Assembly: GCF_026278345.1 (NCBI RefSeq)
Contig: NZ_CP111085.1
Location: 1,624,001-1,688,000, forward strand
Direction: 5' to 3'
Source: Tellurirhabdus rosea
GTDB taxonomy: Bacteria; Bacteroidota; Bacteroidia; Cytophagales; Spirosomataceae
Length of the DNA stretch: 64,000 bases
Part shown: positions 7,479-50,811 of the stretch, piece after piece
How the letters are laid out: every line of letters starts with the position of its first letter
Position numbering within the stretch: position 1 is the stretch's first letter
The notes under the pieces: generated by a model
What the model was told of the DNA's origin: nothing
What the model saw: only the letters and a program-made list of their open reading frames with translations
Databases searched by the model: none
Made by a program: the position numbers and the translations under genes

Positions 7479-7480
7479 AT

Positions 7481-11818: not shown

Positions 11819-11869
11819 AGCAGTAAGAAGTTCATCATTCCAACCAACAACCCATAAACACGAAAAACC

Positions 11870-12172
11870 ATGGACATAACCGTACAGGAACTGAAAGAAC
11901 GCCTTGACCGCGGCGAGAAAGTCAATCTCATCGACGTGCGGGAGGATTACGAATATGACCAGGACAACCTCGGCGGCGAACTGATTCCGCTCGGAGACCT
12001 GCCCCATCGCCTCGATGAACTGGAAGATCGCCGCGACGACGAAATCATCGTGCAGTGCCGTTCGGGCGCCCGTTCCGCCAAAGCCCAGCAGATTCTGGAA
12101 CAGAACGGCTTCTCCAACGTCCGCAACCTCGTAGGCGGAATTCTCGCCTACCGGGAGAACGAAAGGAAATGA
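11870..12172 (+). CDS. Single-domain rhodanese-like sulfurtransferase
   Basis: A 100-residue rhodanese domain. IDVREDYEYDQDN is the CH2A region, and CRSGARS is the active-site loop with catalytic Cys63. Such GlpE/YgaP-like proteins carry persulfide sulfur in the cytoplasm; the acceptor here is unknown. It starts 51 bases after the unknown helical gene. Its TGA is formed by the first bases of the perfect palindrome that separates it from miaA. Confidence 0.95.
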   Translation: MDITVQELKERLDRGEKVNLIDVREDYEYDQDNLGGELIPLGDLPHRLDELEDRRDDEIIVQCRSGARSAKAQQILEQNGFSNVRNLVGGILAYRENERK

Positions 12173-12243
12173 ATGATGAATGATGAAGGCTTCGCCTCAA
12201 TCCGATATGGAGAAAGAGGCGAAGCCTTCATCATTCATCATTC
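12171..12243. terminator. Perfect 28-bp palindrome between convergent genes
   Basis: 12171-12198 and 12216-12243 are exact reverse complements, with a 17-base loop. The outer half is the tandem word GAATGAT; the inner half is GAAGGCTTCGCCTC. Both flanking stop codons overlap the arms (12170-12172 forward, 12242-12244 reverse). It is well placed as a bidirectional terminator. Confidence 0.9.
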
Positions 12244-13153: not shown

Positions 13154-13157
13154 GGCT

Positions 13158-13165
13158 CAAAGCTA
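13158..13165 (-). promoter_or_regulatory. Promoter -7 box of miaA, possibly leaderless
   Basis: On the minus strand this is TAGCTTTG, an exact TAnnTTTG match, separated from the miaA ATG by only AGCC. Transcription would start at or next to the initiation codon. Confidence 0.45.
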
Positions 13166-13231
13166 CGAACCACAATTCGTTAAACCATCTGCCCGTTTTT
13201 TTAGTCAAAAGGGAAACAATTGTTAATCCGA

Positions 13232-13987
13232 ATGAAACGTATAACCCATATTTTTTTCCTGATTCTCTGGTTACCGGCTCTGGCGCAGGCGCAGGGAGGG
13301 CTGGCGCAGGCGGGGCTGGAGGCCATTCAGTCGCTGACGCTGACCAACCAGCAGGTAGCCACCTACTCGCGTCAGGCTGTGCAGCAGATGGACGCCCAAA
13401 ACCCTGTAGCGGGACCCAATGACCCGTACACGCAACGTCTGAACCGGATCGTGAGCCGTCACCGCAGCATCAACGGCATTCCCATCAATTACAAAGTGTA
13501 TAAAGTGGCCGATGTCAACGCCTTTGCGACCGCCGACGGCAGCGTTCGGGTGTTCAAAGGGCTGATGGACATCATGAGCGACCAGGAGATTATGGCCATC
13601 ATCGGGCACGAAATCGGGCACGTGGTCAATAAGGATTCGCACGACGCCATGAAAAGCGCTCTGCGCCGCTCGGCCATCCGGAATGTCGGTGCGGCTCAGG
13701 ACGGGGTCATTGGCCGCCTATCGCGTTCACAATTGGGTGGCATCGCCGACTATCTGGTGGGTGCCAAGCACAGCCGGGACCAGGAGTCCGAGGCGGACGA
13801 TTTCGCCTACAACTTCCTGAAACGCAACGGATACAGCGTCATGGCGCTGGCTACTTCGTTTGAAAAACTGGCGCAGAAAGGCAGCAGCGGCGGCAAGGTG
13901 GGCGAAATTCTGTCCACGCACCCCGACAGCAAAAGCCGGGCCCAGCGGGTCCGCGACCGGGCGCGGCGGGACGGACTGGCGCGCTAA
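13232..13987 (+). CDS. Secreted M48-family metalloprotease
   Basis: A 251-residue exported Zn protease of the LoiP/YcaL type. The signal peptide is residues 1-21, ending ALAQAQ. The catalytic motif HEIGH is at residues 126-130, the third ligand lies in QESEADDFA, and a C-terminal STHPDSKSRAQRVRD segment is typical. There are no membrane helices, unlike HtpX. It probably acts in periplasmic protein quality control. The ATG at 13232 is preferred over an in-frame TTG four codons upstream. A strong terminator follows. Confidence 0.93.
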   Translation: MKRITHIFFLILWLPALAQAQGGLAQAGLEAIQSLTLTNQQVATYSRQAVQQMDAQNPVAGPNDPYTQRLNRIVSRHRSINGIPINYKVYKVADVNAFATADGSVRVFKGLMDIMSDQEIMAIIGHEIGHVVNKDSHDAMKSALRRSAIRNVGAAQDGVIGRLSRSQLGGIADYLVGAKHSRDQESEADDFAYNFLKRNGYSVMALATSFEKLAQKGSSGGKVGEILSTHPDSKSRAQRVRDRARRDGLAR

Positions 13988-34500: not shown

Positions 34501-35272
34501 AGCCCGATAGAAAGATCGTCTTGCCGTCTTTGCCCCGGAAAACGGTCTCGAAGTACGGCAGTTTTTCCCCGCCCTGAATCTGTTTCAGCCGCTGGAAAGT
34601 GCTTTCGGCATAGTCCGGGTGCAGAATGTCGCGCAGGGTCAGCGAGGCCACTTCTTCGGACCCGTAGCCCAGCACTTCGCGCCACGCCCGGTTGACGAAC
34701 ATGAACTTCCCGTCGAGGGTGATGACCTGAATCAGGTCGCTCGTGTTGTCGACCAGGTCCTGAAGCTGCGCGTTGGAATACGAAAGCGCCGAGGCCACCC
34801 GCTTTTTGTTCGTGACGTCCTCCCCGATGATGGTAAACGACGTGATGGCTCCCGCCACGTTGTTGATGATGAGCGAATTGAGCTGCACATTCCGCAGGGC
34901 GCTGCTTTTCGCCAAGAGGTTGATTTCCTTCTGTTCGAGCAGGCCGCCGCGTTCGGTCGCCTCGTCAAACTCCTGCCGGACCTGGGCCCGTTCGGTTTCG
35001 GGAATGAACCGTTCGAAGAAGTTCTGTCCGATAATATCCTCTTTGTCCCAGCCCGTAATGCGGAGCGTGTACTGGTTGGCAAACGTGACCGTTCCGTCGC
35101 GTTCGATGGTCAGCCCGATGAGATTCAGCTGGTCAACGGTCTTGCGAACGTCAAAAACGGCGACGTTCGGCGTCCGGGAGGGGTCGTCCAGCGCATTGAG
35201 GATATCCAGTTCTTTACTAAGTCGCCGAATTTCGGCCACTAGTTCATCTTTCGTTTTGGCTGACCAGCGCAC
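31550..35272 (-). CDS. Soluble hybrid histidine kinase (PAS, PAS, GAF, PAS, PAS, HisKA, HATPase, REC, Hpt)
   Basis: A 1240-residue cytoplasmic phosphorelay protein without membrane segments. Order: short coiled coil, PAS (about 45-157), PAS (166-286), GAF (300-446), PAS (455-578), PAS (585-700), HisKA with NMSHEIRTPMNG (His728), HATPase (about 830-950; SNAIKFTERG, DSGIGI, GGTGLGLAISKEL), receiver (about 995-1110; FMDIQMPDMDG), and Hpt (about 1150-1235; LHTLKGSAGTIGA). It is not the periplasmic hybrid two-component type usual for glycan loci and has no DNA-binding output. The start is a GTG. It lies 73 bases upstream of the lyase pair on the same strand, so co-expression is possible. Confidence 0.95.
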   Translation of the reverse strand: MRWSAKTKDELVAEIRRLSKELDILNALDDPSRTPNVAVFDVRKTVDQLNLIGLTIERDGTVTFANQYTLRITGWDKEDIIGQNFFERFIPETERAQVRQEFDEATERGGLLEQKEINLLAKSSALRNVQLNSLIINNVAGAITSFTIIGEDVTNKKRVASALSYSNAQLQDLVDNTSDLIQVITLDGKFMFVNRAWREVLGYGSEEVASLTLRDILHPDYAESTFQRLKQIQGGEKLPYFETVFRGKDGKTIFLSGSVNCRYDQGKPTAFRCILHNITSRIRAEKAQKLYYSIANWTLNTRDLGDLYQKIHEELGNIIDAENFFIALYDQSKSYLYFPYYVDEYFQGNMRFTKRRLGNGLTEYAIRENKPLFLYEQDIQRLAESHNIYLYGQVPRVMLCAPLRIGDRITGIIGVKSYADLNAYSARDLELLEFISGQVALAIARKQDEAILAKQTARLNAIFDSSSHLIWSVNKSYQLTSFNRNYARLIENQLGEVPQLNVTTEKLGWRIIGADNRKLLEERYRLAFKGLPQSVELHFETPKGNVWLEVNLNPILLSGGIIEEVSGIARDITTRKKTELELRGSEEKFRGIFVNLQDIYCRVDRHGRITMISPSVLKRTGYRPEEVMGQPITKYVDPKDVRRALLRVIRHKSLRNFEATIRRKDGTERQFMFNMLTLEDHGGRVTEVAALARDITELKRNAQELMLAKEDAERSLKVKERFLANMSHEIRTPMNGVIGMIDLLSDTPLNEEQKEYVQTIKRSSETLLNILNDILDLSKIEAGKMQLHEAPVPLQEVLDKLVALFGQQASTKGNRLSYELGPDLPKFIIADQTRLLQVLSNLTSNAIKFTERGRVTVRASLAEKRGKIARIRFDVQDSGIGIAKDDLGLLFNSFSQVDTSSRKSFGGTGLGLAISKELAALMKGTVGVESEVGKGSTFWFTIEVKETSISPSSAKSDGADVPLQNVFTDYQPRTLLVDDNAVNRKVACEILRKAGCIVETASSGSEALAAVASRVNSGELMYDAIFMDIQMPDMDGVETTRHLREQHGTLLPPVVAMTAYSMREDRDRFLSQGLDDYIAKPIRAQSLIAKVKEIIDSGKAFREAAQRKSAQQQYAQEIELPHIDADIIGQLMQLGGKDLVLSIFEDFEQEATTLVHGTLDAFAIGDIPTVKSHLHTLKGSAGTIGAARVADIARQAEGKLKTNDTTTLAEDLKRLDKAYLEFRATYKETLERLVGQSEVA

Positions 35273-37579: not shown

Positions 37580-39019
37580 CTAGTCTTCGATTCGTTCGCC
37601 GCTCGGGTCGATGTCGAATACGCTGCCGTTCAGCACGACCCGGGCGCGACCGTCTTTGAATACGGTGACGTCGTCGTACTTCGGTTTGATGAGCCACCGT
37701 TTTTCGTCGGGCATCCACAGGCCCCAGAGGCCGTCCTTGCGGGCGGGCTGTTCGCCGAAATCGCCGCTTCCTTCGACCAACTGGTCATAGTCGGGGCGCC
37801 GGGAAGACTCGGCCGCCGGTTCCGAACGGGCGGGTTCCTCGGCCTGCTTCCGGGGTTCCGTTGTCCGCCCGGTTTGCCGCGGCTCATCGGCCGCGCTCAC
37901 CTCGGACCGGCTTTCATCCTGCCGCGCGGACGTTTCTTTCCGCTTCGAAGTCCGGGGTTTGCGCTCGCGGCTCTCCCGTTCTTCCGCTTCCTTTTCCGGG
38001 TCGTACTGGATGACCCAGACCGTCAGCGCCAGCATCAGCAGCGCCAGCACGACACCCCACAGACCGGCCCGGTCGAGCAGGCTGGGCTTGGCAACTTCCA
38101 CCGTCACGACGCCCAGCGTATCGCCGTTCTGCCCCCTCAGGGTATACGTTGTGGTTTTGGCCGGCACCACCGTGCGGTTGCCTTCCGGCGGGAGGTTCTG
38201 CCCCACGCCGATCAGGGTGACGGACGCGGTATTGGCGGCTTTCCAGCGCAGGTTAACGGCTTCTCCGCGACGAATGTCGGCGGGCGAGGCTTCGAACAGG
38301 ATCAGCTTGGGGCCTTCGGGCTGGGGCACGGGCGGTTTTTCTTCCCGTTCCCAGTAACTCAGGTGCCGCCAGTCGGTCGAAAGAAGCTTCTCTTTCAGCG
38401 TAGCTCCTTTCGGCGGCTTGACCGAGGCGTAAAAGTTTTCGGACAGATACGCCAGAATTTTCTTGGCCAGGGCCTGCTCGTCGTAGTCAATGGCTTTGAA
38501 AAGAAAACGCAGATTCTGGGCCGGGATGTGGCCGTCGTATTCGTCCAGAATCTCGTGAATTTTGCGGCGCACGGCTTCGTCAGACAGCAGGGGCCGGGTT
38601 TCGGCCGGCGGCGGGGCCGGTGTCTCGGCAACGGGCGCGGTTTCCGCGGGCGGCGGCACTGTCGGCGGGGCGGGGGGCGTGGCGGGCTTCAGATTCAGCA
38701 CCACCGGCACCCAGCGGTTGCGCACAAAGTCCGGGGTGAGGTAAAGCCGGGCAGCATCGGCGGCCAGGATGTTCAGATCGTCGTGGGTAAGGCGGTTGGC
38801 GCGGCGTTCGCCCAGCGTTCGGATACGGGTCCGGAGGTCTTCCAGCAGGTCGCTGTTGTTGTCGAGCTGGACGCGCACTTTTTCCATCAGCCGCCGGACA
38901 TCGTCGATATCCAGTCCCAACGGCTGCACCTTATCCAGAAAAACGCCTTCCAGCCCTTCGTATTCACCCCGCAATACAATTTCTTCCCGTATCAGGTTTT
39001 CGAGTTCCGCCAGTGTCAT
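37580..39019 (-). CDS. Ig-like/WG-repeat single-pass membrane protein, last gene of the cytoskeletal operon
   Basis: A 479-residue protein without signal peptide. Residues 1-75 form a coiled coil and about 110-140 are a Pro/Ala linker. A helical segment (about 145-235) precedes an Ig-like domain (about 240-315; RGEAVNLRWKAANTASVTL). One transmembrane helix lies at about 318-340 (LWGVVLALLMLALTVWVI), then a highly charged linker, and the last 50 residues resemble a WG-type beta repeat (KDGLWGLWMPDEKRWLIKP). The N-terminal part is probably cytoplasmic. It starts 10 bases after the retropepsin-like gene. No family assignment for the whole protein. Confidence 0.82.
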   Translation of the reverse strand: MTLAELENLIREEIVLRGEYEGLEGVFLDKVQPLGLDIDDVRRLMEKVRVQLDNNSDLLEDLRTRIRTLGERRANRLTHDDLNILAADAARLYLTPDFVRNRWVPVVLNLKPATPPAPPTVPPPAETAPVAETPAPPPAETRPLLSDEAVRRKIHEILDEYDGHIPAQNLRFLFKAIDYDEQALAKKILAYLSENFYASVKPPKGATLKEKLLSTDWRHLSYWEREEKPPVPQPEGPKLILFEASPADIRRGEAVNLRWKAANTASVTLIGVGQNLPPEGNRTVVPAKTTTYTLRGQNGDTLGVVTVEVAKPSLLDRAGLWGVVLALLMLALTVWVIQYDPEKEAEERESRERKPRTSKRKETSARQDESRSEVSAADEPRQTGRTTEPRKQAEEPARSEPAAESSRRPDYDQLVEGSGDFGEQPARKDGLWGLWMPDEKRWLIKPKYDDVTVFKDGRARVVLNGSVFDIDPSGERIED

Positions 39020-39029: not shown

Positions 39030-39602
39030 TCATTCAAATATGACCACATTTCGCTGGTAGTCAATGGATACTCTCCCAAATTTTGCCAGTACCGACTGGC
39101 CGAGCAGCAGCGGGGCGCGGCTTCCGCTGACAATGCTCGCATCAACATTGCGGAGCGTCCGGTCGCCGATCTTGACCGTCCGGAGCCGGACGACCATGCC
39201 GGGCGAGATGTCGCCGTTGGCATCCTGAAAATCGACTTTCCCGACAAAATCGCTGTCGCTCAATGTTCCCTGTTTATACAAAAATTGCGCTTCTGTTTCA
39301 GAAATTGAAATCAGACTGGCGCCCGTGTCCAGAATAAAATCCATCCGGACGCCGTTGACCGTCGCCGGAATCTTGAAAACGCCCCGGTGTTTGATCATTT
39401 TGACCTCCGTAGGGCCGCTGCCGTCGTCGGTCAGCTCCGTTTCGTCCGTCTGGGGCTGCCGGTCCGGCTCCTGTGCGGGGGTCCGGACCGACTGGTCGTT
39501 GGTAGCCCGACGGCGCGGAGGCCGCTGGCCGCCCGACTTGGAGCAACCCGCGCAGTCGGTCAGGAAAAGCGTAATCAGCAACAGATATAACGTGGTACGC
39601 AT
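39030..39602 (-). CDS. Retropepsin-like aspartic protease lipoprotein
   Basis: A 190-residue predicted lipoprotein (lipobox LTDC, Cys17) with a charged linker to about residue 65 and one clan AA retropepsin-like domain. FILDTGASLISI has the active-site DTGA at 92-95, and LLLGQSVLAKFGRVSIDY provides the conserved flap/hydrophobic-Gly element. A single lobe implies that it acts as a homodimer. Bacterial members are periplasmic proteases of unknown target. It follows the stator-like genes across a 118-base gap with an inverted repeat, and is 10 bases before the next gene. Confidence 0.9.
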   Translation of the reverse strand: MRTTLYLLLITLFLTDCAGCSKSGGQRPPRRRATNDQSVRTPAQEPDRQPQTDETELTDDGSGPTEVKMIKHRGVFKIPATVNGVRMDFILDTGASLISISETEAQFLYKQGTLSDSDFVGKVDFQDANGDISPGMVVRLRTVKIGDRTLRNVDASIVSGSRAPLLLGQSVLAKFGRVSIDYQRNVVIFE

Positions 39603-39720: not shown

Positions 39721-40344
39721 CTATTTAAATTCCCCGATTTTGGCCGTAATCTGAATGGTAAAGCGGCGGTTCCGGTCTTCGTCGGCCTCCCGCGATTTGC
39801 TGAAATAGCCGCTGCCGGCAATCAGCACTTCGCAGTTTTGAAACCGATTGAAATCCAATCCGTTCCGCTGCCAGAACTTGTGCAGGGCCAGCGCACGCTG
39901 ATAACTCAGGTTGTAACCGATGTCGGGCGTGTATCGATAATTAAACGCATTCCGCTGCGTATTTCCTTCAATGACGATCAGATAATTGATATTTTTTTCT
40001 TCAACCAGCACCCGGATTTTGCGGTACAACTGCCGCCCGGCCTCCAGCAGTTGCTGTCGGACGGGCTCGGGCAGCAGGTCAATATCCGATTGATTGGACG
40101 GAAAGTTCACATCGGCGTTGAGTTTGAAGCGTTTATTCCCCTCGTCGTAGCTGTAATAGGTCGAATCCAGTTCCTGCAAGGCCCGTTCTATATCCCGAAT
40201 CTGCTTGAATTTTTCGGCATCGACCCCGATGGTGCCCTGCATCACCACAACGGTCACGACGTACAGGACGAGCATGATAAAGAACAGGCTCGTCATCAGA
40301 TCGGCGTAACTGGGCCAGAAAAAAGACGTTTCGCGGTTCTTCAT
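39721..40344 (-). CDS. MotB/OmpA-like (ZorB-like) stator partner
   Basis: A 207-residue inner-membrane protein with one N-terminal helix. SYADLMTSLFFIMLVLYVV closely matches the MotB AYADFMTAM segment, with Asp15 at the place of the proton-binding Asp. The C-terminal domain is OmpA-like: DVNFPSNQSDIDLLP, VIEGNTQRN, GYNLSYQRALALHKFW and DRNRRFTIQI fit the peptidoglycan-binding fold. Its ATG overlaps the stop of the channel gene (ATGA), so the two are co-translated. Known for the family: such pairs form ion-driven stators (MotAB, ExbBD, ZorAB). No flagellar or gliding motor gene is adjacent. Confidence 0.92.
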   Translation of the reverse strand: MKNRETSFFWPSYADLMTSLFFIMLVLYVVTVVVMQGTIGVDAEKFKQIRDIERALQELDSTYYSYDEGNKRFKLNADVNFPSNQSDIDLLPEPVRQQLLEAGRQLYRKIRVLVEEKNINYLIVIEGNTQRNAFNYRYTPDIGYNLSYQRALALHKFWQRNGLDFNRFQNCEVLIAGSGYFSKSREADEDRNRRFTIQITAKIGEFK

Positions 40345-41810
40345 GCCATACCGTTATCCGACCCAAGAAACCGCCGGAACCGCTGCCAGCCTGTCGCCCG
40401 CTGCAACTGCTCCAGCCGCCGCAGCGTCTGGTTGGAGGTCCGCATGCTTTCGCTCAGCTGGCCCACCGTCGCCAGCAGGTCGCGCTGCCACGCCTGGCCC
40501 TGTTCGTGCAGCCGGTGGACTTCCTGCTCCAGCGTTTCGAGGCGTTTCAGATGCCCGAGGGCCGACCGGTTTTCGTCGAACAGCCGGCTCATGGCATCTT
40601 CTTCTTTCAGTTTAATGTCGCGAACCGCCTGAATCCGTTCGAACATATGCGCCCGCAGGCCGTCGAGGGCCTCGTTGACGACGTTCTGCATGCGGTCGTT
40701 GGTGTTCAGAATCAACTGTCCGCGCTGTTCCAGCTGCTCGAAATGACTGCTCAGAAAGCGCTGAAGCTGCTGCGATTCAGTGAGAACCTGGGTAAGCCGG
40801 TCGCTCAGGCCCGCCACATCGCTGGTGCGCTCGACAAGTTGCCGGGCATTGTCGGTCAGCGCCGTCAGGTTATCCAGAAACAGGGCAAACCGCTCGAAGG
40901 CCGACAGGCTGCGCTGCATCTGCTCCATCGTGCTGAGGTTGAAGGTCGCAATGCGGTTCAGGTCCATTTTGTCGAGGGCTTCCAGCAGTTCGCGCTGGGC
41001 CAGCAGGGCGTCGTAATTCTTCGTGATGATGCCTTCCAGCCGGGTCGCCGTATCGCTGAACTGGTGGCCGAAGCGGTCGAGGCTCCGGTTCAGGTCGTAG
41101 ATGCCCGAGTTGACGCTTTCGGTCAGGATGGGCAGTAGTTCGGTTTGCAGAAACGTGAAAAAATCGTGCGTAAGACTCTCGATCTCCACCTTCGCCCCCC
41201 GAAACCGCCAGGAGTTGATGACCGTAATGAGCAGTCCGATAAAGCTGGCCAGCATGGCCGCCCGGACGCCGCTGATGAGCGAGTTGACGCCTTCGAGGTT
41301 GCTCACGCCCCCGCCTTCCATAAACTGCTGGATGTTCAGCGACGGCATGTTGTAAAGACCAATGACCACGCCGAGCATCGTGCCAAGCAGGCCGAGATAC
41401 AGCGGCACGGGCAGCATGAGCGTGACCTCATCCTCCAGCGCGTCAATGTTGCGCTGGGTGATGTCTTTCAGCAGGTTGAAATCCGCCACCGCCGCTTTGT
41501 TGCGCAGCAGGTACGTATTGATGGCCGTCCGGATTTTGGTCATCGTCTCCGAATCGTCGGCGGTCTGCCGCAGGATGGTCAGTTCGGTGGTATTGACTTC
41601 GTACTCCGTAGCGTACTGTTCCGGGCGGGCCAGCAGCTGCCGGGCGTCCACCTCCTGCAAAACCGGATTGGGCACCCGCACCTTTATAATCTTAAACACC
41701 TTCGCCTCCGGAATGCTGTCCTGATACCGGCTGATGGCCCCCCAGGTTTTCACCCAAACGGCAATCTGGAGGCCAATAACGACCAGGACAACGATTAATT
41801 CGATTCCCAT
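40341..41810 (-). CDS. MotA/ExbB-like (ZorA-like) proton channel with long helical tail
   Basis: A 489-residue inner-membrane protein: helices at about 3-20, 135-153 (VPLYLGLLGTMLGVVIGLY) and 183-199 (RAAMLASFIGLLITVIN), arranged like TolQ/ExbB with the conserved LGTMLGV segment. A 270-residue cytoplasmic alpha-helical/coiled tail follows, rich in Gln, Leu and Glu. A long tail is typical of Zorya ZorA rather than ExbB, where it transmits motion to an effector. Overlap with the MotB-like gene indicates a stator complex of fixed stoichiometry. What it drives is unknown; the tubulin-like and actin-like genes in the operon are the candidates. Confidence 0.9.
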   Translation of the reverse strand: MGIELIVVLVVIGLQIAVWVKTWGAISRYQDSIPEAKVFKIIKVRVPNPVLQEVDARQLLARPEQYATEYEVNTTELTILRQTADDSETMTKIRTAINTYLLRNKAAVADFNLLKDITQRNIDALEDEVTLMLPVPLYLGLLGTMLGVVIGLYNMPSLNIQQFMEGGGVSNLEGVNSLISGVRAAMLASFIGLLITVINSWRFRGAKVEIESLTHDFFTFLQTELLPILTESVNSGIYDLNRSLDRFGHQFSDTATRLEGIITKNYDALLAQRELLEALDKMDLNRIATFNLSTMEQMQRSLSAFERFALFLDNLTALTDNARQLVERTSDVAGLSDRLTQVLTESQQLQRFLSSHFEQLEQRGQLILNTNDRMQNVVNEALDGLRAHMFERIQAVRDIKLKEEDAMSRLFDENRSALGHLKRLETLEQEVHRLHEQGQAWQRDLLATVGQLSESMRTSNQTLRRLEQLQRATGWQRFRRFLGSDNGMA

Positions 41811-41816
41811 GATGTA

Positions 41817-43118
41817 TTATTCAAAGCGGATCACCGCCTTCGTCTGTACCCGCCAGTTCCCGGCCTCCTTCACGGCACTGCCGTCCGTCCGGGTGACAAT
41901 GCGGGTGTGGGCGTCTTCAGCGTAATTATTTTCACTGTCGCAGGCGGGGTCGATGAAGTACGTCCGGTAAGTCAGGAAGCGTTTCATCCGGCCCGGTTCC
42001 GGCTCAAAGCGGAAAGCGGCCTGCTCGGGGCGCTGCGGGTGGATAATCAGTTTGTAGGCACTGTCGGGCGTGGGCACAGCCGAGCGCTGGGCGTCGTCGA
42101 ACAACCCCTGCTCGTTCGGGGCGGGGTAATAAAAAACCTCCATTTTGAGCGGTTCAGTCACCGGCACCGGAGCCGCGGCGACCGGAGCCGTATCCATCGT
42201 GGCGGCTTCAACCGCCACCGGAGCCGCCACCGCGACCGGTCCTTTCAACTGCCGGATCGCACCCAGCGGGTCGGTCACGCTGCCGACTTCCTCCCGGATC
42301 TTGTTCAGCAAATCCAGTTGGTTCTGCACGTTTTTAGGCAGAATGATAACTTCGTTGGTCGGCGTGTTGGTGGGTTTGGTTACGGGAGTCGGCTTTTCGG
42401 CCCGGCGTTTCAGGTTTTCCATTTCCTGCTGCATGGCAAAAACCGTTTCCTTCGCCCGGCGACTGACCATCAGAAAAACGGCGGCCCCGCCGAGCAGCAG
42501 CCCGCCGAGCGTTCCGGCAATAAACAGCCACATAGGCACTTGTTTTGGGGTTTCGGTGGATTGAACTGGGGTTCCGGTGTCGGCGGCGGTAACGTTGTCA
42601 GTCGAATCGGAAAGGGTATCTTCCGGTTCGACTGACGGACTTTCGGCGGCGGGTGTCGGCATGCTTCCTCCCGTCACCTGCTGAAAAACCGTCGTGGCAA
42701 TCGCTATTTGATCGTCCTCACCCAGCGCCCTTTTGTAAATCAGTTCTTTTTTATAACGTCCGTAAAAATCGCTCAGGGATTTTCTCAATTGTGCCGGAAG
42801 GGCGGTTCCCGTAGCTCCCGTAAAAGTAGCATTCTGCCTCAGTTGGTCGAAAAACGTCAGTTTGTCTGCCACCCGGTCCCAGCCTCCAATGCGCCGAATG
42901 AGGGCACCCGGTTCGCAGCCGGAACCGCAGGTTTTTAGCTCCTGCCGAATCTGTTCGGCCTTCTCGCCGTCGCCTTGTTGTCCTTTTATTCCGGCAAACA
43001 CCGCCTTGGCCACTTCTTTCTTCAGACTATCGACGGCGGGCAGGTTGTCCTGCCCGAAGACCGTCGGACTGAGGAGAACGGCCAGCAGCAGGGCCGCCCA
43101 TCGTTTCGGTGAGTTCAT
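41817..43118 (-). CDS. Exported single-pass membrane protein of the operon, unknown function
   Basis: A 433-residue protein: signal peptide at about 1-22 (LSPTVFGQ); a periplasmic helical domain (about 25-150) with a Cys pair in KTCGSGC; a Ser/Thr/Pro/Glu-rich linker; a transmembrane helix (about 196-219, MWLFIAGTLGGLLLGGAAVFLMV); then a cytoplasmic coiled coil and a Pro/Ala/Val-rich linker before a C-terminal beta domain ending VQTKAVIRFE. No known family. It is packed one base after the actin-like gene and six bases before the channel gene, so it is probably a structural link between them. Confidence 0.82.
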   Translation of the reverse strand: MNSPKRWAALLLAVLLSPTVFGQDNLPAVDSLKKEVAKAVFAGIKGQQGDGEKAEQIRQELKTCGSGCEPGALIRRIGGWDRVADKLTFFDQLRQNATFTGATGTALPAQLRKSLSDFYGRYKKELIYKRALGEDDQIAIATTVFQQVTGGSMPTPAAESPSVEPEDTLSDSTDNVTAADTGTPVQSTETPKQVPMWLFIAGTLGGLLLGGAAVFLMVSRRAKETVFAMQQEMENLKRRAEKPTPVTKPTNTPTNEVIILPKNVQNQLDLLNKIREEVGSVTDPLGAIRQLKGPVAVAAPVAVEAATMDTAPVAAAPVPVTEPLKMEVFYYPAPNEQGLFDDAQRSAVPTPDSAYKLIIHPQRPEQAAFRFEPEPGRMKRFLTYRTYFIDPACDSENNYAEDAHTRIVTRTDGSAVKEAGNWRVQTKAVIRFE

Positions 43119-43119
43119 A

Positions 43120-46100
43120 TCAGTTAACCGGTCCAGTTTGGGTATGAATCGCGTAAGCCAGTTTGTTGATGCCCCCGATGAGCGGGTAGAAAAAGAGCGT
43201 TTCTTCCAGGTCGCGGTCCAGCGACGTAGCCTCGGCCAGCTTGCGCTGTACGCCGTTCATCAGGAAGGTATCCAGATGGGTATACAGTTCCTTTTTGGCG
43301 ATCCGCAGGGATTCGGGCGAGATGTTCAGGTAATCTTCGAAGCCGAAATCCCGGTCGAGAGCGAAGAAGAAATCAATGAAGCCTTCGGCTTCCTTCAGAA
43401 CGCTCTGCGTCACCTCCGGCCGGTTCAGGTCTTCGTACCGCAGCCTTTCGGGACTTCCGGCGGGCAACCCGGCATAGACGTAACTGATTTCCTGCGCGCT
43501 GACCGGATCGGTGGACGCCCGCATCATCAGGGCACCTTTGCAGGTCACTTCCTTCGGCCGGTTCTTGTCCGTGTACAGCGTCAGGCCGCTCCGGTCGAAC
43601 GGCTGCTCGTAGACTTTCTCGAAAATTTTCTGCGAAAACTTCTGCAAAATCCCGCTGTCGGCGCTGATGATGCTGAGCAGTTTGGAACCCGTTCCGCTGA
43701 AAGTCAGCGCGCCCGGCAGGGCCAGCCCCTTGTGGTTCATCAGTTTGGCGATGTGGTACAGCAGCGCCGTGTAGAAAAGCAGCGGCACCACTTTCAGGTG
43801 ATCGTCGGCCGACAGCATCTGGTTGAACGACAGCAGGCTCTTGTCCTTCACCTCGTCGCTGCGCTCCATCGAAAACCAGAACGTGACGATTTCCTCCGAG
43901 CGGTTGTTGCGCAGAATCCGGTCGTTGTTCTCCTTCAGCTTGGGTGTCCGGTTCAGCAGATTCTGAATTTTACCTTTATACCGCTGCACAAACCCGTTGT
44001 TCTCGGCCGCCCCAAAATCGCTGAAAGCGTCGCCGTAAACGGCATTTCCGGCAAACCGGAACGAAGTCAGCAGAATCGGATGGTCGCGTTCGTAGATCAC
44101 CACGTCGGACGTTCCGCCGCCAATGTCGATGTTCACCACCGGGCGGGCTGCCGAACTGAGCAGCGGGTTAGTCTGCCGGTAGAAGTAGAACGGGGCAATC
44201 GACTCCGAAACGGGCTGCGGCGCACCTTCGTGGGCGCTGATGTGGGCGTGGTACAACTCCCGCCAGATCTGCTGGAACTGGGCGATGCGGCCCGGCGTCA
44301 TGCTGGCCGGATAGAACCAGTACACCGTCGTCTGGCTCAGGTCGCCGCCTTCCGACAGGACTTTGTTTTTGATCAGCAGCATCAGTTCTTCCAGAAACGC
44401 CCGGACGCGCCGGCTCGTCTGCTGGTTGTCGCGCGCCCATTTCAGATTCGGCGTCACCTCGTTCGGGCCCGCGGGCTGGCGTTCGATGTAGAACGGAATG
44501 TTCAGGTCGGCCAGCGTGTAGGTCGTCTGGTTGAAATCCAGCCCCTTCGACTCGGCGATGGCCGTTCGCGTCGGGAACGAATCCGGCGCACCGGGACCGA
44601 TGACGTTCGGGACAAATTCCAGATCGTAGAGGATGAAGAGGTCGGCCAGACTGGCGTTGTAGTAGTCCGGATGGACCAGCGTCCCGACCTGCTTCAGGTT
44701 TTCGGGCATGTCGAACGGACGCGGGCTCTGGTTATCGACGCTGTACTCGATATGGGTGTTGGTCGTCCCGAAATCGACCGCAAAGGCAAACCGCTTGCCG
44801 CCGCCTTCGTATTTCGTCCAGCGGGGAATGAGCAGCCCGGTCATGTCGTGGCCCTCCACCCGGATGCTGGTCCGGGCGTAATCGAACTCATGCCGCAGCA
44901 CATAGTAGTCGCTCGACGCATCCGGGTTGTTGAGGCGCGAGGTCCGGGTTCGCCGAGGCTCTGCCGCGACGGGTTTGTTGTCCCGGTCTTCGTAGAATTC
45001 CAGCGTATACTGGTTCCGCTTCTGATAGCCGGATTCGATCAGCTGAATGCGGTAATCCGGGCGCAGCGTCACCCGCCCCGAGCGGATAAACGGATAGATA
45101 TTGACCGTAAACGAATCTTCCACAATCACCCCGTCGTTGCGCTGCAAATCGGGAATGGGAATCGAATTGGGATTGATCGGCTGATTGTAAATCCGCTCGA
45201 ACGTCACAAACTGACTGCCCGGCTGCCCCGGCGCCATGACCGGAATGTCGAGCGTTACCTTAATGCCCGACGCCAGCGGCTCCATCCGCAGACGGACCCG
45301 TTCTTCGAGCAGGTCCTGCACGTCGAAGAAGTCGAAAAAGTCCTTTTTGAGCGGCAGCAGATAGCCTTTCTCGATGGCCGGCGCGTTCAGATTCCCGTCG
45401 AAAAAGCGTTCCCGGTTGATGGGGTAGCGCAGGCGAATCAGGTACGGCTCCAGAAAATCGCTGACCGTCAGCCACGGGTACAGGTCCGGCTGGCCGGGCA
45501 GCGGCCGCTGGTTGTCGCGCCAGCTTTCGTTGACGGCAAAGGGCACGGGCGTTTTGGGGTCCCAGCGGGCCTGCGGCACGTAGGTGAACGGCCGGTAAAA
45601 GTTGTTTTGCAGCACCATCGGCCGCCGCTGGTTGGGATACAACTGGGCGTATTTGTCGGACTTGATAATAAAGTCGCTGACCTGCTCAATGGCGCCTGTA
45701 TTGGCCTTTTTCTTAGCGAGCGGAAAGCCCAGCACTTCGATGACGTCGCTGGCCTGTCCGGTCGTCAGTTCCTCAAAATCGGCGTACAGCGTATCGGCCG
45801 AGAGCAGGCTCTGCCCGTTCGGCATTTCAATATGCTGGTAAAACAGGTCGGAGCGGCTCTGGCGGAGCAGGTCGCGGCTGCGGGTCAGGTACTGGTCGAG
45901 TTCCGGGAAGTTGCGGCGGAAGCCCGGATTCGCCACCTGGAGCGTGTACCAGAACTTCTGATACTCGATGTCCCGTTCGTGCAGCGGCCAGGGCTGCACG
46001 TCGAACAGCTTGTGGTTGCCGAACCGAACGTCTACCCAGCTCAGGTCGTTGCCGGAACTGAAAAACAGCGTTTTGGGCGACGTCCCGCCGATAATTTTTC

Positions 46101-46560
46101 CGCGGTAGCTCAGCATGAACAGCCGCTGGATTTTGTCGAAATTAAAGCTCTCCCGGTCCTGGTCCAGAAACAGTCGCAGCGCCTCGCCCAGCCGCTTATG
46201 ACCCTGATTCGGTGAGTTAAGCAGTTGCCCGAGGTGGTAATTGGCGTCCCAGGCCGTGATGGTGATAAATTTTTTGAGCGTGTCGAAGTTGAAAAACAGC
46301 TCGCCCACGTCGAAGGCGTCCGAGACCAGCCGCCGGTCGTTGACCGTCCCGAGCAGGTCGGCCCGTTTGGCCAGGTTCAGGAAGGCCGACCGCACCAGGT
46401 CCATGCGCGCGAACGGGCTGGGAATGGAAGTCGGCTGTTTTTCGGTCTGTCCGCCCTGCGGGTCGCGGAGGGCGTCGATCTGGTCGCTGCCATACGGGCG
46501 GGTGACGGACCAGTGCAGGATTCCCTGCGTCAGGTTATGAAGGCTAAGCGTCGTTGGCAT
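43120..46560 (-). CDS. Giant protein with C-terminal actin/Hsp70-like ATPase domain (SrfB-like?)
   Basis: A 1146-residue cytoplasmic protein without signal or membrane helix. Residues 1-585 are an unrecognised mixed alpha/beta region. From about 590 the actin/Hsp70 ATPase fold appears: phosphate-1 motif FAVDFGTTNTHIEY (about 593-606), phosphate-2 motif NIDIGGGTSDVVIY (about 810-823) and an adenosine-binding-type motif LTFSGTGSKLL (about 952-962). All three nucleotide-binding elements look intact. Overall layout is reminiscent of the SrfB family named after a Salmonella gene, but this is only a suggestion. The start is four bases after the tubulin-like stop, so both are made together. Confidence 0.88.
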   Translation of the reverse strand: MPTTLSLHNLTQGILHWSVTRPYGSDQIDALRDPQGGQTEKQPTSIPSPFARMDLVRSAFLNLAKRADLLGTVNDRRLVSDAFDVGELFFNFDTLKKFITITAWDANYHLGQLLNSPNQGHKRLGEALRLFLDQDRESFNFDKIQRLFMLSYRGKIIGGTSPKTLFFSSGNDLSWVDVRFGNHKLFDVQPWPLHERDIEYQKFWYTLQVANPGFRRNFPELDQYLTRSRDLLRQSRSDLFYQHIEMPNGQSLLSADTLYADFEELTTGQASDVIEVLGFPLAKKKANTGAIEQVSDFIIKSDKYAQLYPNQRRPMVLQNNFYRPFTYVPQARWDPKTPVPFAVNESWRDNQRPLPGQPDLYPWLTVSDFLEPYLIRLRYPINRERFFDGNLNAPAIEKGYLLPLKKDFFDFFDVQDLLEERVRLRMEPLASGIKVTLDIPVMAPGQPGSQFVTFERIYNQPINPNSIPIPDLQRNDGVIVEDSFTVNIYPFIRSGRVTLRPDYRIQLIESGYQKRNQYTLEFYEDRDNKPVAAEPRRTRTSRLNNPDASSDYYVLRHEFDYARTSIRVEGHDMTGLLIPRWTKYEGGGKRFAFAVDFGTTNTHIEYSVDNQSPRPFDMPENLKQVGTLVHPDYYNASLADLFILYDLEFVPNVIGPGAPDSFPTRTAIAESKGLDFNQTTYTLADLNIPFYIERQPAGPNEVTPNLKWARDNQQTSRRVRAFLEELMLLIKNKVLSEGGDLSQTTVYWFYPASMTPGRIAQFQQIWRELYHAHISAHEGAPQPVSESIAPFYFYRQTNPLLSSAARPVVNIDIGGGTSDVVIYERDHPILLTSFRFAGNAVYGDAFSDFGAAENNGFVQRYKGKIQNLLNRTPKLKENNDRILRNNRSEEIVTFWFSMERSDEVKDKSLLSFNQMLSADDHLKVVPLLFYTALLYHIAKLMNHKGLALPGALTFSGTGSKLLSIISADSGILQKFSQKIFEKVYEQPFDRSGLTLYTDKNRPKEVTCKGALMMRASTDPVSAQEISYVYAGLPAGSPERLRYEDLNRPEVTQSVLKEAEGFIDFFFALDRDFGFEDYLNISPESLRIAKKELYTHLDTFLMNGVQRKLAEATSLDRDLEETLFFYPLIGGINKLAYAIHTQTGPVN

Positions 46561-46563: not shown

Positions 46564-48051
46564 TTAGTAATCCGTTACTTTGGTTATTTTTTCACGGATG
46601 AAGCGTTCGGTTCCTTCCGAAAACAGGTGAATGAATTTGTCGGGTTCGCTGGGGTAGGCTTTTCCTTCGGCGGTAGCGTTCAGGGTCCGGTCGAAATCGT
46701 TGACGATGTCGAGGTCCACGGCCACTTCCTTACCCCAGAGGTTTCGTTTGGTCGGCTCAAAGCCCCGGACGGTCTGCCCGAGGTTGCCCGAATCCAGCAG
46801 GAACGGGCTGAAGCCGCGCCGATTGGTTTCCATTTCTGCCAGCCACTGCCGGAAGCCTCCATCAAATTTCCGGACGCTGTTCATAAACGCCGAATTCATG
46901 AACTGGCTCGAAATAGGCGGATTGGACTTGGCCCAGACCGTGTTGCCGGCGGCCTGATTCAGCCGGCTTTTCAGATATGTGCTGAAAAAAGCAAACTTGG
47001 ACAGCGGCAGACTCACCTGACGGCGGGTGTCTTTCGCTAAATGGTCGAGCTGCAGGCTGGTGCCGTCGCCTTCGAGTCCGAATTCCTTACTGACGGGGTT
47101 ATCCGGCCGGCCGTTGGTGGTGGTCAGGTCGTAGTCCGGCGTATTCATGAAATCCACGATGGCCAGGGCCGAAACCAGCTCGACAAAGTGGGCGTCGTTG
47201 CGCTGTCCGCCGTTGCCGGGGTCGTAGTTGTAGGCTTTGGTCACGTCGTCGCCGACATAATACAGGGCATTGACCGAGTGGTTCACGTTCCGGGCGTAAT
47301 AATACAACGCCGCCTTGGTTTTGGCGATGAAGGAAGCCGGGTCGATGAGCCGGTTTTCGTCGTTGTTCAGGCTGAAATACGGCATTACCGAAACGGCCCC
47401 GATGCGGGCATCACGCAGATAAGCCGGGTTCGGAATGTTGCTGGCCTGCGCGCCGCGGATGTTTTTGAGCAGAATCGGAAAGCCCGCCGCGCCGGTCCCG
47501 CCGAAGATCGAACTGATGATGAAAATCCGGTCATCGGCCGCAAAATTGGTCGCAAACGCCCCAAACACATCCGAGTTTTTGAACTGGTTGAGCACCGTGC
47601 TGCCGATGTTCGGGTTGCCGACAAAGCCGATGTCCATCTTCGTCCCGAGGTTTTCCTCCGAAAACAGCAGGCTCGCCAGCGCCTTGTTGGCCGGGTCCAG
47701 TCCGCCGTAGTCGATGTATTCCTCGAAGGTGCTCTGCTGCACGCCCTGCAGGTCGAAGACGTAGGTATCGGCAATGGTCGCGTCGGCCCCGATGGAGCGG
47801 TTCAGCGTTTTGATCTCCGTCCCAAAAAAGCCTTCTGCCGGTTTGTTTTTGAGCGTATTACGGATGTTGCCGTATTCGCGCAGCAGTTCTTTGGTCCGCA
47901 GCAAATCCTCGTTCTGGGCGTGCGGGTCGAGGATGATGGGAATCACCTCGCTCGTATTTTCCATTTTAACGCCCGAAGCCAGCAGCATCGTCAGGGCTTT
48001 GAGCACCCGGGAGCCGGTCCCTCCGATGGCAAAGACAAATAGTTTTGGCAT
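46564..48051 (-). CDS. Tubulin/FtsZ-superfamily GTPase-like protein
   Basis: A 495-residue cytoplasmic protein of the tubulin-like type distinct from FtsZ. The first motif FAIGGTGSRVLKAL (7-20) forms the N-terminal nucleotide strand and loop. The tubulin signature appears as SSIFGGTGAAGFPIL (180-194), equivalent to GGGTGTG of FtsZ. Acidic residues follow in a helix-rich middle. It lacks the FtsZ C-terminal peptide and is longer than FtsZ. FtsZ-like families of this kind were predicted by Makarova and Koonin to belong to membrane-remodelling systems with vWA and OmpA proteins. The ATG at 48051 is chosen over a GTG four codons upstream that lies in a palindrome. Confidence 0.9.
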   Translation of the reverse strand: MPKLFVFAIGGTGSRVLKALTMLLASGVKMENTSEVIPIILDPHAQNEDLLRTKELLREYGNIRNTLKNKPAEGFFGTEIKTLNRSIGADATIADTYVFDLQGVQQSTFEEYIDYGGLDPANKALASLLFSEENLGTKMDIGFVGNPNIGSTVLNQFKNSDVFGAFATNFAADDRIFIISSIFGGTGAAGFPILLKNIRGAQASNIPNPAYLRDARIGAVSVMPYFSLNNDENRLIDPASFIAKTKAALYYYARNVNHSVNALYYVGDDVTKAYNYDPGNGGQRNDAHFVELVSALAIVDFMNTPDYDLTTTNGRPDNPVSKEFGLEGDGTSLQLDHLAKDTRRQVSLPLSKFAFFSTYLKSRLNQAAGNTVWAKSNPPISSQFMNSAFMNSVRKFDGGFRQWLAEMETNRRGFSPFLLDSGNLGQTVRGFEPTKRNLWGKEVAVDLDIVNDFDRTLNATAEGKAYPSEPDKFIHLFSEGTERFIREKITKVTDY

Positions 48052-48058
48052 ATCTGTA

Positions 48059-48079
48059 CCCACGGGCGTCAGCCCGTGG
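48059..48079. repeat. CCACGGGC palindrome before the tubulin-like gene
   Basis: CCACGGGC (48060-48067) pairs with GCCCGTGG (48072-48079) around a 4-base loop, just upstream of the tubulin-like start. It is a copy of the element duplicated at 51709-51794. Confidence 0.85.
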
Positions 48080-48187: not shown

Positions 48188-48622
48188 CTACTTCGACGGC
48201 CAGAGCATCGGCCGGTGTTTGGCGTTGCGGCTGAAACCTTTCATCAGTATCGAAATGAGGAAGAACAGCAGGAACGTCAGCACGGCCATTTCGGCGCTGA
48301 AACTGAAGAAAACGGTGCCGCCCTGGTCGAAGAAAAAACCCTGGTCCGGCTCGTCCGGCACCCGTTCGATCTCCTTGTTTGCCATCTGCAGGCAGGTTAC
48401 CAGCGTAACGACGAACATCAGTCCACCGCTGACCAGCAGCATCGTCAGCCAGTGCCCGAAGCCGCTGAAACTGACCTTATTCAACGGCCATATATAAAAA
48501 GCAAAAGCGACCAGAAAGGCGATGGCGATCGCACTCACCGTCAGCGTCGACAATAATTCCTGGGCGTACAAGTCCTCCAGCAGGCCGTTCTCTACGAACA
48601 AATCATAAAAATTGTACAGCAT
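48188..48622 (-). CDS. Three-helix inner-membrane protein of the operon
   Basis: A 144-residue protein with three strongly hydrophobic segments (about 26-46, 54-79 and 105-128) and a short acidic extracytoplasmic loop (IERVPDEPDQGF) between helices two and three. There is no known motif. It lies 24 bases after the vWA lipoprotein and is separated from the tubulin-like gene by 136 bases with two repeats. A membrane anchor or pore for the complex is possible, but there is no direct evidence for this. Confidence 0.83.
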   Translation of the reverse strand: MLYNFYDLFVENGLLEDLYAQELLSTLTVSAIAIAFLVAFAFYIWPLNKVSFSGFGHWLTMLLVSGGLMFVVTLVTCLQMANKEIERVPDEPDQGFFFDQGGTVFFSFSAEMAVLTFLLFFLISILMKGFSRNAKHRPMLWPSK

Positions 48623-48646: not shown

Positions 48647-50110
48647 TTAATCTTTTAACGTCAGCGTCAGGGCAAAAAACTGCTCCTGCCCCGAGGCATT
48701 GTAGGCGCTTTCGACGCCCTGAAGCAGGTTTTGGAGACCAAAGGTGCTTTCGGCATCCGGCCGGGCGTCGTTGCGGGTGCTGGTTTCGGCGACCCAGCGG
48801 GGCGGGAAATCGCGTTTCAGCCGGATAACGGCCGTGCGCGTTCCCCGGGCGGGTTTGGAAGCCAGCAGCCAGATTTTGTGCGTGGCGCCGCCGCCCCGGT
48901 AGACCTCCACTTTCTCGACCTTGAAATTGTCCTTTCCTGCGATCTCAAACTGGGTTTTATCGGTCATGAACGATTCGGGCAGATTGAGTTTCGACAAATC
49001 AACCGCCACCGGAATCCGCAGGGATTTATCGGGAGCCGCTTCCACATCTTCCAGCGTATGGATGCCTTTTTCGTCGCGGTCGGCGCGGGCAAACCGGCCT
49101 TTTTTGCCCGGATCATTCAGCAGAACGGAGAAATACGGCTCGGTGGCCGCTTTGTTTCTGGTAAAAAACCAGAAATCATCGTAGCCCGGCAAATCGCGGA
49201 AGTCCCGCAGCGTCGCGTACTTTTCGTCCTGCATGAACTGCTGCATGGCGGCGTTTTGGCCGATGAAGCAGAGGTAGTACGGCCGCTCGCCGCGGTGCCG
49301 CACCGTGCCGCCCGCCGCCGGGTAATACGGCCCGTCGAAGTCGGATGTGAGCTTGACGACCAGCATGGAATGCGTATTGGCATAATTGCCGAAAACAGTG
49401 GTCATCAGCGCTTCCGCCGCATTGAGAGTCTTGTCTACGCTCTGCCCTCTCAGAGTGGGGTCGGAGTAAATCAGGTCGGAAGCCAGCACGGAAATGTCCG
49501 AACCGCCGGTCTGCTTGAGGATTTGTGAGAAAATCAGTTCGAAGTCCGTACTCGTGGTCTTGCCTTTGGTTTTGGCGACGTTGAAGATATTCTGCGCTTT
49601 TGTAAACTGCGACTGACTCAGCCCCAGCGGATTGACCTCCGTATTGACAACGAATAATTCGGTTTTGTCGGGAGTTACGGCTTCAAACCCGTTGATGACC
49701 TGATTCAGCGTCCGTTTGAAGTCGCCGCTCGAACCGGGGGCATCGTAGGGAAACATGCTCCCGCTGGCTTCGAGGTACAGTTTCAGCTCCAGCGACTGGC
49801 CCGCCGAGCCTTCCAGCTCAATGACGGGAGGCTTGCCGGTTTCGTTCCGAATGTCGCGGTAGGCTTTGCTCCGCTTCAGGTACGCCAGCAGAGCCGCGTC
49901 GCCGCCCTCCGAAAGGCTGGCCGTCGCTTTTTCGTCGGCCAGCTTATCGCCGTTGTCGGTGATGAACTGACGGAGTTCCGCCGCCTCTCTGGCATCAAGT
50001 TTCTGATCGGAAAAGCCACTTTCAATTTTGGTATCCAGTTCATCTTTCGGCCCGCTGCAACTGGTCAGCAGGGCGGTTACAGACAGAGTTAAGGCAATTA
50101 TTCGATTCAT
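48647..50110 (-). CDS. vWA-like lipoprotein of the operon
   Basis: A 487-residue lipoprotein with lipobox LLTSC (Cys18) and a charged helical stretch (about 25-90). A von Willebrand A-like domain begins at about residue 107: LELKLYLEASGSMF stands where the MIDAS motif DxSxS is normally found, but reads E-A-S-G-S (114-118), so metal binding may differ. FVVNTEV and VLASDLIYSD fit later vWA strands. The C-terminal 150 residues are a separate beta-rich domain (SFMTDKTQFEIAGKDNF, AVIRLKRDF). vWA proteins act as adaptors in AAA/GTPase-driven assemblies. It is second in the operon, 62 bases after the cold-shock-like gene. Confidence 0.87.
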   Translation of the reverse strand: MNRIIALTLSVTALLTSCSGPKDELDTKIESGFSDQKLDAREAAELRQFITDNGDKLADEKATASLSEGGDAALLAYLKRSKAYRDIRNETGKPPVIELEGSAGQSLELKLYLEASGSMFPYDAPGSSGDFKRTLNQVINGFEAVTPDKTELFVVNTEVNPLGLSQSQFTKAQNIFNVAKTKGKTTSTDFELIFSQILKQTGGSDISVLASDLIYSDPTLRGQSVDKTLNAAEALMTTVFGNYANTHSMLVVKLTSDFDGPYYPAAGGTVRHRGERPYYLCFIGQNAAMQQFMQDEKYATLRDFRDLPGYDDFWFFTRNKAATEPYFSVLLNDPGKKGRFARADRDEKGIHTLEDVEAAPDKSLRIPVAVDLSKLNLPESFMTDKTQFEIAGKDNFKVEKVEVYRGGGATHKIWLLASKPARGTRTAVIRLKRDFPPRWVAETSTRNDARPDAESTFGLQNLLQGVESAYNASGQEQFFALTLTLKD

Positions 50111-50172: not shown

Positions 50173-50811
50173 TTACCTTCGTCGGTAGGGCAGCAGATAC
50201 GCCGCCACAAACAGGGCCGCCAGCAGGTACAGGTACGTTTCGGAAGCCGTATCGCCTTCAAACCCGTCGCAGCTTTGCATCCAGAAGGCCATCCCGGTAC
50301 AGAGCACAATGGGCCAGTACAGCAGCCGAACCAGCCAGCGCCGCGTGCCGCTTCCGAAGAGGTACGACGCCAGGGCCAGCATCACGGCCGTCAGGATGCC
50401 CCAGAACGACTCCAGCAGGGCGGGCGTCCGGCCTCCCCGGGGCGAGGGTTCGTTGCCCGACAGGGCCAGCGCGATCAGCGCCGCGAGCGCAATCAGCGAG
50501 CCCGGCCAGTTCAGCCACCCACCCCGCTGCGCCGGCACTTCCGAAGCCGCGTACGGCTCATACCGCTCCGGCACGACCTCCGCCCTGACCGGAAGCACCT
50601 CGTCGGCGGGTACCACCGGGGGATTTGTCAGCGTCACGGGCACAACCGGCGGGCGGCCTTCTTCACTAACGTCTACCTGTATGGTCAGATTATCCGCAAC
50701 CACCGCGTTTTCCGGCAAATCTTCGCGCCGGAAGTACCGCACCCTGCCCGCTTCGTCGCGCAGCAGGCCGCAGCGGGTCAGTTCATCGTAGTGAATTATC
50801 GTTCCCTGCAT
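50173..50811 (-). CDS. Cold-shock-like N-terminal domain fused to a multi-helix membrane protein
   Basis: A 212-residue protein. Residues 1-60 (MQGTIIHYDELTRCGLLRDE, VRYFRREDLPEN) resemble a degenerate OB-fold cold-shock domain of the kind fused to membrane domains such as DUF1294. A linker (about 60-98) follows. The rest contains about four transmembrane segments (SLIALAALIALALS, FWGILTAVMLALASYLFG, LLYWPIVLCTGMAFWM, YLYLLAALFVAAYLLPY). The aromatic RNP motifs of true cold-shock proteins are incomplete, so nucleic acid binding is doubtful. It is the first gene of the cytoskeletal operon and divergent from rsmA. Confidence 0.8.
   Translation of the reverse strand: MQGTIIHYDELTRCGLLRDEAGRVRYFRREDLPENAVVADNLTIQVDVSEEGRPPVVPVTLTNPPVVPADEVLPVRAEVVPERYEPYAASEVPAQRGGWLNWPGSLIALAALIALALSGNEPSPRGGRTPALLESFWGILTAVMLALASYLFGSGTRRWLVRLLYWPIVLCTGMAFWMQSCDGFEGDTASETYLYLLAALFVAAYLLPYRRR

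Follow-up and report, generated by a model that had tools for sequence, protein, structure and literature searches.

The actin-family protein FtsA and the tubulin-family GTPase FtsZ act together at the membrane. Tubulin relatives of the FtsZl1 type (Pfam Tubulin_2) have been described in operons with genes for vWA, OmpA-type and membrane proteins, patchily spread across bacteria including Bacteroides and cyanobacteria, and in the available text these systems are predicted to serve membrane remodelling (Makarova and Koonin, 2010; PMC2875224). GTPase-centred systems with tubulin and HSP70-family genes, and with vWA genes too, have also been reported, the accessible portion of that report treating the two, in other phyla, as themes that do not overlap (Kaur et al., 2020; PMC7159879). 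Here we analyse a stretch of 64,000 nucleotides from Tellurirhabdus rosea (hereafter the window, to whose positions all coordinates refer unless a locus is named), in which the gene of a predicted actin-family protein and probable ATPase, termed ACT (43120..46560, ATG start, 1146-residue open reading frame (ORF)), follows that of a 499-residue tubulin/FtsZ-like protein, termed TUB (46564..48063, GTG start); these and all further genes of the cassette lie on the minus strand. We moderately favour a reading in which an envelope-anchored machine, a divergent FtsZl1 relative, combines two NTPases of cytoskeletal type, with ACT serving as the ATPase subunit. The cassette, which is membrane-associated, is rare; it occurs in Bacteroidota and on certain plasmids of cyanobacteria, and in some lineages a proton-channel motor accompanies it.

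The C-terminal half of ACT, delimited by profile search and fold match (residues 589-1146, 43123..44796), carries three nucleotide-binding motifs in the order expected for the actin/Hsp70 fold, as a preliminary description of the window had noted: VDFGTTNT with D596 (phosphate-1 motif DFGTTNT, residues 596-602, 44755..44775), NIDIGGGTSD with D812 (phosphate-2 motif DIGGGTSD, residues 812-819, 44104..44127) and SGTGSK with G956 (adenosine motif, residues 955-960, 43681..43698). We aligned 19 homologue rows into a profile (A1), leaving out the partial L038, L061, which is without ACT, and L033 with other Spirosoma near-copies. D596, G598, N601, K707, E786, D812, G814, G815, T817, D819 and G956 are identical in 19/19 homologues, and we take E786 (44203..44205), which lies within SESIAP, to correspond to the glutamate of Hsp70 and MreB and propose it as the catalytic residue. 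Some actin-fold proteins do not hydrolyse nucleotide, and ACT could in the same way be a nucleotide-binding scaffold or switch devoid of ATPase activity, but the invariance of D596, E786, D812 and the loop glycines argues against this account, which we regard as improbable.

Searched against PDB profiles, A1 matched MreB with an E value of 9.2e-6, an actin-family chain with 2e-5, and Hsp70 and FtsA chains with 0.004-0.02. An AlphaFold2 model of ACT was built from 20 sequences, the folding alignments (A4, A7) leaving out L030 (broken frames) and the partial L021 and L023. Foldseek placed MreB 8azg at E 1.2e-6 with this model, the matched fold covering residues ~588-1115, and the three motifs fall inside it. 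VIA aligned residues 588-~1018 (588 to 1111-1118 for Hsp70s) at Z 8.8-10.6 in the 50 rows listed, which include ParM, PilM, sugar kinases, MreB, FtsA, actins and DnaK; the ParM alignment (7x54_A) has a Z of 10.6 and a root-mean-square deviation of 6.2 over 245 residues, with a model whose predicted local distance difference test score (pLDDT) is modest. An actin/Hsp70 (ASKHA) fold is thus supported by profile search and modelling for residues ~588-1115, in agreement with the preliminary assignment of this half to the actin-like proteins, and by fold and likely chemistry ACT is probably an actin-like ATPase.

Ties among most VIA matches leave ACT unplaced among the branches of the superfamily. 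This bears on a second account, in which ACT would be an Hsp70-like remodeller that uses its ATP cycle to assemble or disassemble TUB or another client and never polymerises itself. The fold matches are split among MreB, ParM, FtsA, actins, Hsp70s and sugar kinases with tied Z, the Hsp70 alignments extend to residue 1111-1118 while those of MreB stop near 1016-1024, and the large N-terminal half could bind a client; HSP70 together with tubulin also appears in other systems in the accessible part of Kaur et al. (2020; PMC7159879). Against this, no Hsp70 substrate-binding domain was recognised in ACT, and the commonest sub-threshold Pfam matches among the 19 homologues are FtsA (13/19) and EutA (10/19), with none to HSP70. 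The best Pfam match of ACT from the window is likewise FtsA (PF14450; E 0.0096), which at 16.7 bits remains below the cut-off of 31.8, and a PADLOC scan gave no match for ACT. We consider the remodeller a substantial possibility, though one that falls short of even chances.

The N-terminal half (residues 1-588 by homologue alignment, 44797..46560) had been suggested as a possible new adaptor, which was not supported. Across the 19 rows it is conserved to the same degree as the C-terminal half (mean pairwise identity 0.262 versus 0.258), it contains invariant residues (W17, P47, A51, G158, T160, P162 and others), and its motifs TSIPSPFAR and GGTSPxTLFF are no less strict than the C-terminal ones. 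On two cyanobacterial plasmids (L074, L075) the tubulin-like gene is followed by a gene for a 1096-1118 residue protein that shares 847 aligned columns with A1, between profile positions 49-1018 (probability 100, E 1e-39). The L074 orthologue has SIPSPWAR, GMTSPATL, VDFGTS, DIGGGTSD and GGNGSR, and in that of L075 GGNGSR is unchanged while the other four motifs appear as variants. Since the cyanobacterial proteins align across both halves, the whole of ACT is one old family across phyla, and an adaptor appended at its N-terminus was rejected on the grounds of equal conservation and this cross-phylum alignment. Modelled alone, the N-terminal half reached a mean pLDDT of 46 and a predicted template-modelling score of 0.30; the best Foldseek row was an immunoglobulin-like chain (E 9.8e-4), and VIA found beta sandwiches only, at ~484-586, with Z up to 6.9, below the informative level of the tool. 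Residues ~484-586 may, with low confidence, form a beta sandwich in the model; with a VIA Z at that level and a poor model, we claim no fold for the half as a whole. The separate searches of the two halves that had been proposed thus yielded an actin fold for the C-terminal part and no confident fold for the N-terminal one.

The preliminary description had also named SrfB as a search target. ACT resembles SrfB in its length near 1000 residues and in the DIGGGTTD loop of the latter, Pfam SrfB (PF07520) is touched by 5/19 ACT homologues at E up to 1 (best 0.056), and a comparison of SrfB and ACT profiles has a probability of 94.9. However, the profile of five SrfB proteins aligns with A1 over 43 columns only, around the phosphate-2 loop, and with the cyanobacterial ACT pair over 38 columns only, in contrast to the 847 columns shared by ACT and its cyanobacterial relatives, and nothing outside that loop aligns. 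ACT from the window has no SrfB match at E up to 0.1, while true SrfB is present in 1/198 genomes of the phylum at E 1e-182. The annotated neighbours of SrfB genes are SrfC and, in one case, SrfA, and none of ten window proteins scanned with Pfam at E up to 0.1 is SrfC. We rejected an SrfB identity because the alignment is limited to the phosphate-2 loop; for ACT to be a diverged SrfB-family protein seems highly improbable, and judged by their sequences the two share the superfamily only. On a Runella sp. SP2 plasmid (L076, 1-11065), the BREX genes pglZ and brxL are immediately followed by genes for SrfB and SrfC.

TUB is a divergent protein of the Tubulin_2 (FtsZl1) type with the motifs IGGTGSR and FGGTGAAG. 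Alone, the protein from the window stays below both Pfam cut-offs (Tubulin_2, PF13809, 16.5 bits versus 27), and the best PDB profile match for TUB has an E value of 0.0036. Its homologues at E up to 0.1 match Pfam Tubulin in 21/22 cases (best 2.9e-8) and Tubulin_2 in 20/22 (best 4.1e-10). At the position of the GGGTG(S/T)G loop the family has conserved variants, e.g., FGGTGAAG and FGGTGASS, and the cyanobacterial TUB aligns with the type found in the window over 320 columns with a probability of 100.

The tubulin-like gene ends three bases before ACT, as reported previously, and the tie between the two genes proved to hold well beyond this genome. When the same 395 Bacteroidota genomes were searched with the ACT profile A1 and the TUB profile A2 at E up to 1e-10, ACT was found in 12 and TUB in 13, with all 12 shared (Fisher p 5e-22), and the order TUB then ACT is kept on the cyanobacterial plasmids. 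By coordinates the two genes are direct neighbours in 11 of the 12 genomes, and G309 has a partial ACT match within 3 kb of TUB. A class-level search, in which ACT of G412 was recognised by place and alignment, found ACT adjoining TUB in 14/15 loci, G495 being the exception. The TUB-only genome (G390) is an assembly with 13% contamination. Its TUB copy (L101, C38:42249-43721) has seven in-frame stops and may represent a decayed cassette or a contaminant contig.

Around this pair we recognise a core of four genes, encoding a lipoprotein that is possibly a vWA protein, a three-helix membrane protein, TUB and ACT. In 16/19 flanking loci a gene for 416-531 residues, a gene for 108-159 residues, TUB and ACT occur in this order, with one extra small ORF in L036; in the other three loci the small gene was not called by the filter (L037), ACT is cut by the contig end (L038) or TUB stands alone (L061). 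Cyanobacterial plasmid L074 repeats the core order, as do two contigs from a viral collection (the only two that scans of that collection for homologues gave); in the cyanobacterial L075 the first core gene does not stand at its usual position. The first core gene (48647..50110) encodes a 487-residue protein with a lipobox, with a cysteine that at least 90% of 21 rows retain, and with ExSGSM and SD motifs, which we read as vWA-like; Pfam gave no vWA match, and the best PDB profile matches of the protein are protein E and others at E 0.009 to 0.25. The second core gene (48188..48622) encodes a 144-residue protein with three transmembrane-like stretches; its counterparts in L067 and L074 have three such stretches too.

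In the window the core is followed by genes for two motor subunits, a 489-residue ZorA/TolQ/ExbB-like protein with a coiled-coil-like tail (40341..41810) and a 207-residue ZorB/MotB-like protein with a transmembrane helix, the invariant D15 and an OmpA-like domain (39721..40344). Both types also occur in 9/19 flanking loci. The aspartate of the single transmembrane helix of the ZorB type is identical in 10/10 rows, OmpA-like residues are present, and in PDB comparisons the profile of this type reached E 1.9e-15 with 8vvn_B, which is related to MotB, and 2.2e-9 with chain F of 8qyd, a ZorAB entry. For the ZorA-type profile the E values were 1.2e-4 with a MotA/TolQ/ExbB chain and 0.0017 with ZorA; its matches to apolipoprotein and designed bundles were set aside as an effect of coiled-coil composition. 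PADLOC gave a clear ZorB-like match (E 2.4e-13) and a weak ZorA-like one (E 0.001). When seven cassette-bearing genomes were searched whole at E up to 1e-5, the motor was found in three, as one copy each inside the cassette, and nowhere in the remaining four. The ZorB type is present in 3/296 genomes, all three of which carry ACT. In a 23-row tree of ACT, the 10 rows labelled by hand as having a motor all fall within one group of 16, and four gains or losses suffice to explain them, versus 7.7 in shuffles; its deep forks are unsure because of long branches. The simplest account is that the motor was gained once and then lost, e.g., in Spirosoma, whose loci contain no motor gene.

These subunits raise the question of Zorya-style anti-phage defence, in which the motor would detect damage to the envelope when a phage injects, with the tubulin/actin pair as effector or relay. 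The type of motor and the patchiness of the cassette (12 of 395 genomes) make this a serious rival, and the plasmids, the two viral-collection contigs and an ACT tree that does not follow taxonomy point the same way; GTPase systems able to hold tubulin and HSP70 are, in the accessible text of Kaur et al. (2020; PMC7159879), proposed to have roles in conflict. However, a PADLOC scan limited to 13 window proteins matched none to ZorC, ZorD or ZorE, ten flanking genes (seven of other loci and three of the window) include no defence gene and look ordinary, and the ACT-TUB pair exists without the motor. Another scanned set of ten proteins, L040 among the loci, likewise showed no defence gene; one L040 protein matched Cas3b along 79 residues (E 0.0038), which we attribute to chance. 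On this evidence we regard a defence role as rather unlikely. The departure of the tree from taxonomy is seen in G371, which belongs to the family of the window and groups with G016, a relative at the phylum level only; together with the plasmids and viral-collection contigs this makes horizontal transfer of the cassette likely, old paralogy being the alternative.

The fold, the conserved active-site residues, the gene order, the co-occurrence, the predicted membrane segments and the motor homology were computed, and from them we infer, step by step from co-located genes to a complex and to force, how an envelope-anchored machine might work. The actin/Hsp70-type half of ACT would bind and hydrolyse ATP, and its N-terminal half and TUB would form one physical, cytoplasmic assembly, in which polymerisation might occur. 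The assembly would be tethered to the inner membrane through the three-helix protein and a bitopic protein, facing the possible vWA lipoprotein outside, and the state of the NTPase pair would be set by the lipoprotein, the membrane proteins and, where present, ion flow. In the clade of the window, a wall-anchored ZorA/ZorB-like channel would couple ion flow to the assembly, driving or gating it through the cytoplasmic tail. The most likely purpose of such a machine would be regulated remodelling or surveillance of the envelope. We suggest more tentatively that the cassette represents an undescribed class of envelope machine, built on an obligate pair of actin-family ATPase and tubulin-family GTPase that in one clade is driven or gated by a proton-channel rotary motor; on present evidence this is somewhat unlikely.

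Several observations weigh against the envelope machine. The full model of ACT is weak, with a mean pLDDT of 56. TUB of G284, one of the 12 shared genomes, contains an in-frame stop, and the correlation of ACT and TUB distances over 18 loci (Spearman 0.90) is also expected from mere linkage. The first core gene of the window has a BLAST match in 13/19 loci and the small gene in 2/19, the remainder being assigned by place and size, and the further genes in the cyanobacterial loci differ. In the comparison of the 487-residue lipoprotein with PDB profiles, a Ro60 chain (region 370-485) has an E value of 0.27, behind unrelated matches at 0.009-0.25. Among the ten flanking genes scanned, those of the other loci gave no functional hint. 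Finally, 13/23 ACT loci on the tree are labelled motor-less, two of which (L065 and L075) end short downstream, so the motor is not essential to the ACT-TUB pair.

The minus-strand run around ACT is compact, with 3 bp between TUB and ACT, 1 bp between ACT and the next gene, then 6 bp, and a 4 bp overlap of the motor genes. The gene after ACT (41817..43118) encodes a 433-residue protein with a signal-like N-terminus by eye and one transmembrane-like stretch at 198-216. Downstream of the motor lie genes for a 190-residue putative lipoprotein of the clan AA aspartic proteases (DTGAS; 39030..39602) and a 479-residue WG-repeat protein just below the Pfam cut-off (37580..39019), which is near the cassette in Spirosoma too and whose membership is unsure. 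The DTGAS lipoprotein is also encoded with the cassette in other bacteria, Spirosoma and a member of the Prevotellaceae among them, with 38-57% identity among five aligned, and a periplasmic protease of this type may be part of the system. Membership is equally unsure for a 212-residue protein at the 5' end (50173..50811), which has a homologue in the same place only in L034. Further downstream, at 31550-35272 on the minus strand, is a gene for a 1240-residue hybrid histidine kinase with PAS, GAF, receiver and Hpt domains. A plus-strand ORF of 1117 residues (42862..46215) covers most of ACT and exemplifies the long antisense frames of this genome; we take it as an artefact, since the minus frame is open and conserved as a protein among homologues.

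Other loci add genes of their own. In L058 (3415-7564, minus strand) two proteins of 460 and 931 residues are encoded between ACT and the motor genes, the larger matching spectrin repeats below the threshold and, weakly (E 3e-4), the 433-residue protein of the window. One viral-collection contig (L066, IMGVR_UViG_3300034171_000222, 815-8116) has a full core cassette beside opposite-strand genes that look phage-like by eye. The other (L067, IMGVR_UViG_2857903310_000004, 9710-13593) has a distant cassette, followed by genes for an 880-residue TPR protein and for two proteins of 192 and 193 residues that look alike by eye, the first of which had no Pfam match.

A literature search found no paper describing the ACT-TUB pair, alone or with the motor, and none giving FtsZl1-type tubulins a tested role. 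Among described systems, the cassette resembles FtsZl1 operons, in the available text of PMC2875224, in joining a tubulin-like gene to genes for possible vWA, OmpA-type and membrane proteins and in its patchy spread; it differs in that this text names no actin-family partner and does not contain the terms MotB and TolQ, in that the type protein described there has 1051 residues with a coiled coil, versus 499 in TUB of the window, and in that Pfam matched no P-loop GTPase or Ser/Thr kinase among ten window proteins scanned. The systems of Kaur et al., as far as the accessible text goes, centre on GTPase and GAP1 genes, which were not seen in this cassette. With Zorya (PMC11890865, in its available text) the cassette shares ZorA/ZorB-type subunits with the channel aspartate and an OmpA-like domain; it differs in having tubulin-like, actin-like and lipoprotein genes and in the lack of ZorC, ZorD and ZorE matches in the 13 window proteins, and the words tubulin and cytoskeleton are absent from that text. 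ACT differs from FtsA in being about three times as long as the FtsA model (371 positions), in falling below the FtsA cut-offs and in its operon partners. If the more tentative reading of an obligate pair driven or gated by a rotary motor is true, two cytoskeletal superfamilies and an ion motor are brought together in one operon. The conserved actin-family partner with intact active-site residues, and the ion motor in some lineages, offer handles for testing the role of FtsZl1-type tubulins, and ACT-TUB would be a second pair of actin-family and tubulin-family proteins inherited together, beside FtsA-FtsZ.

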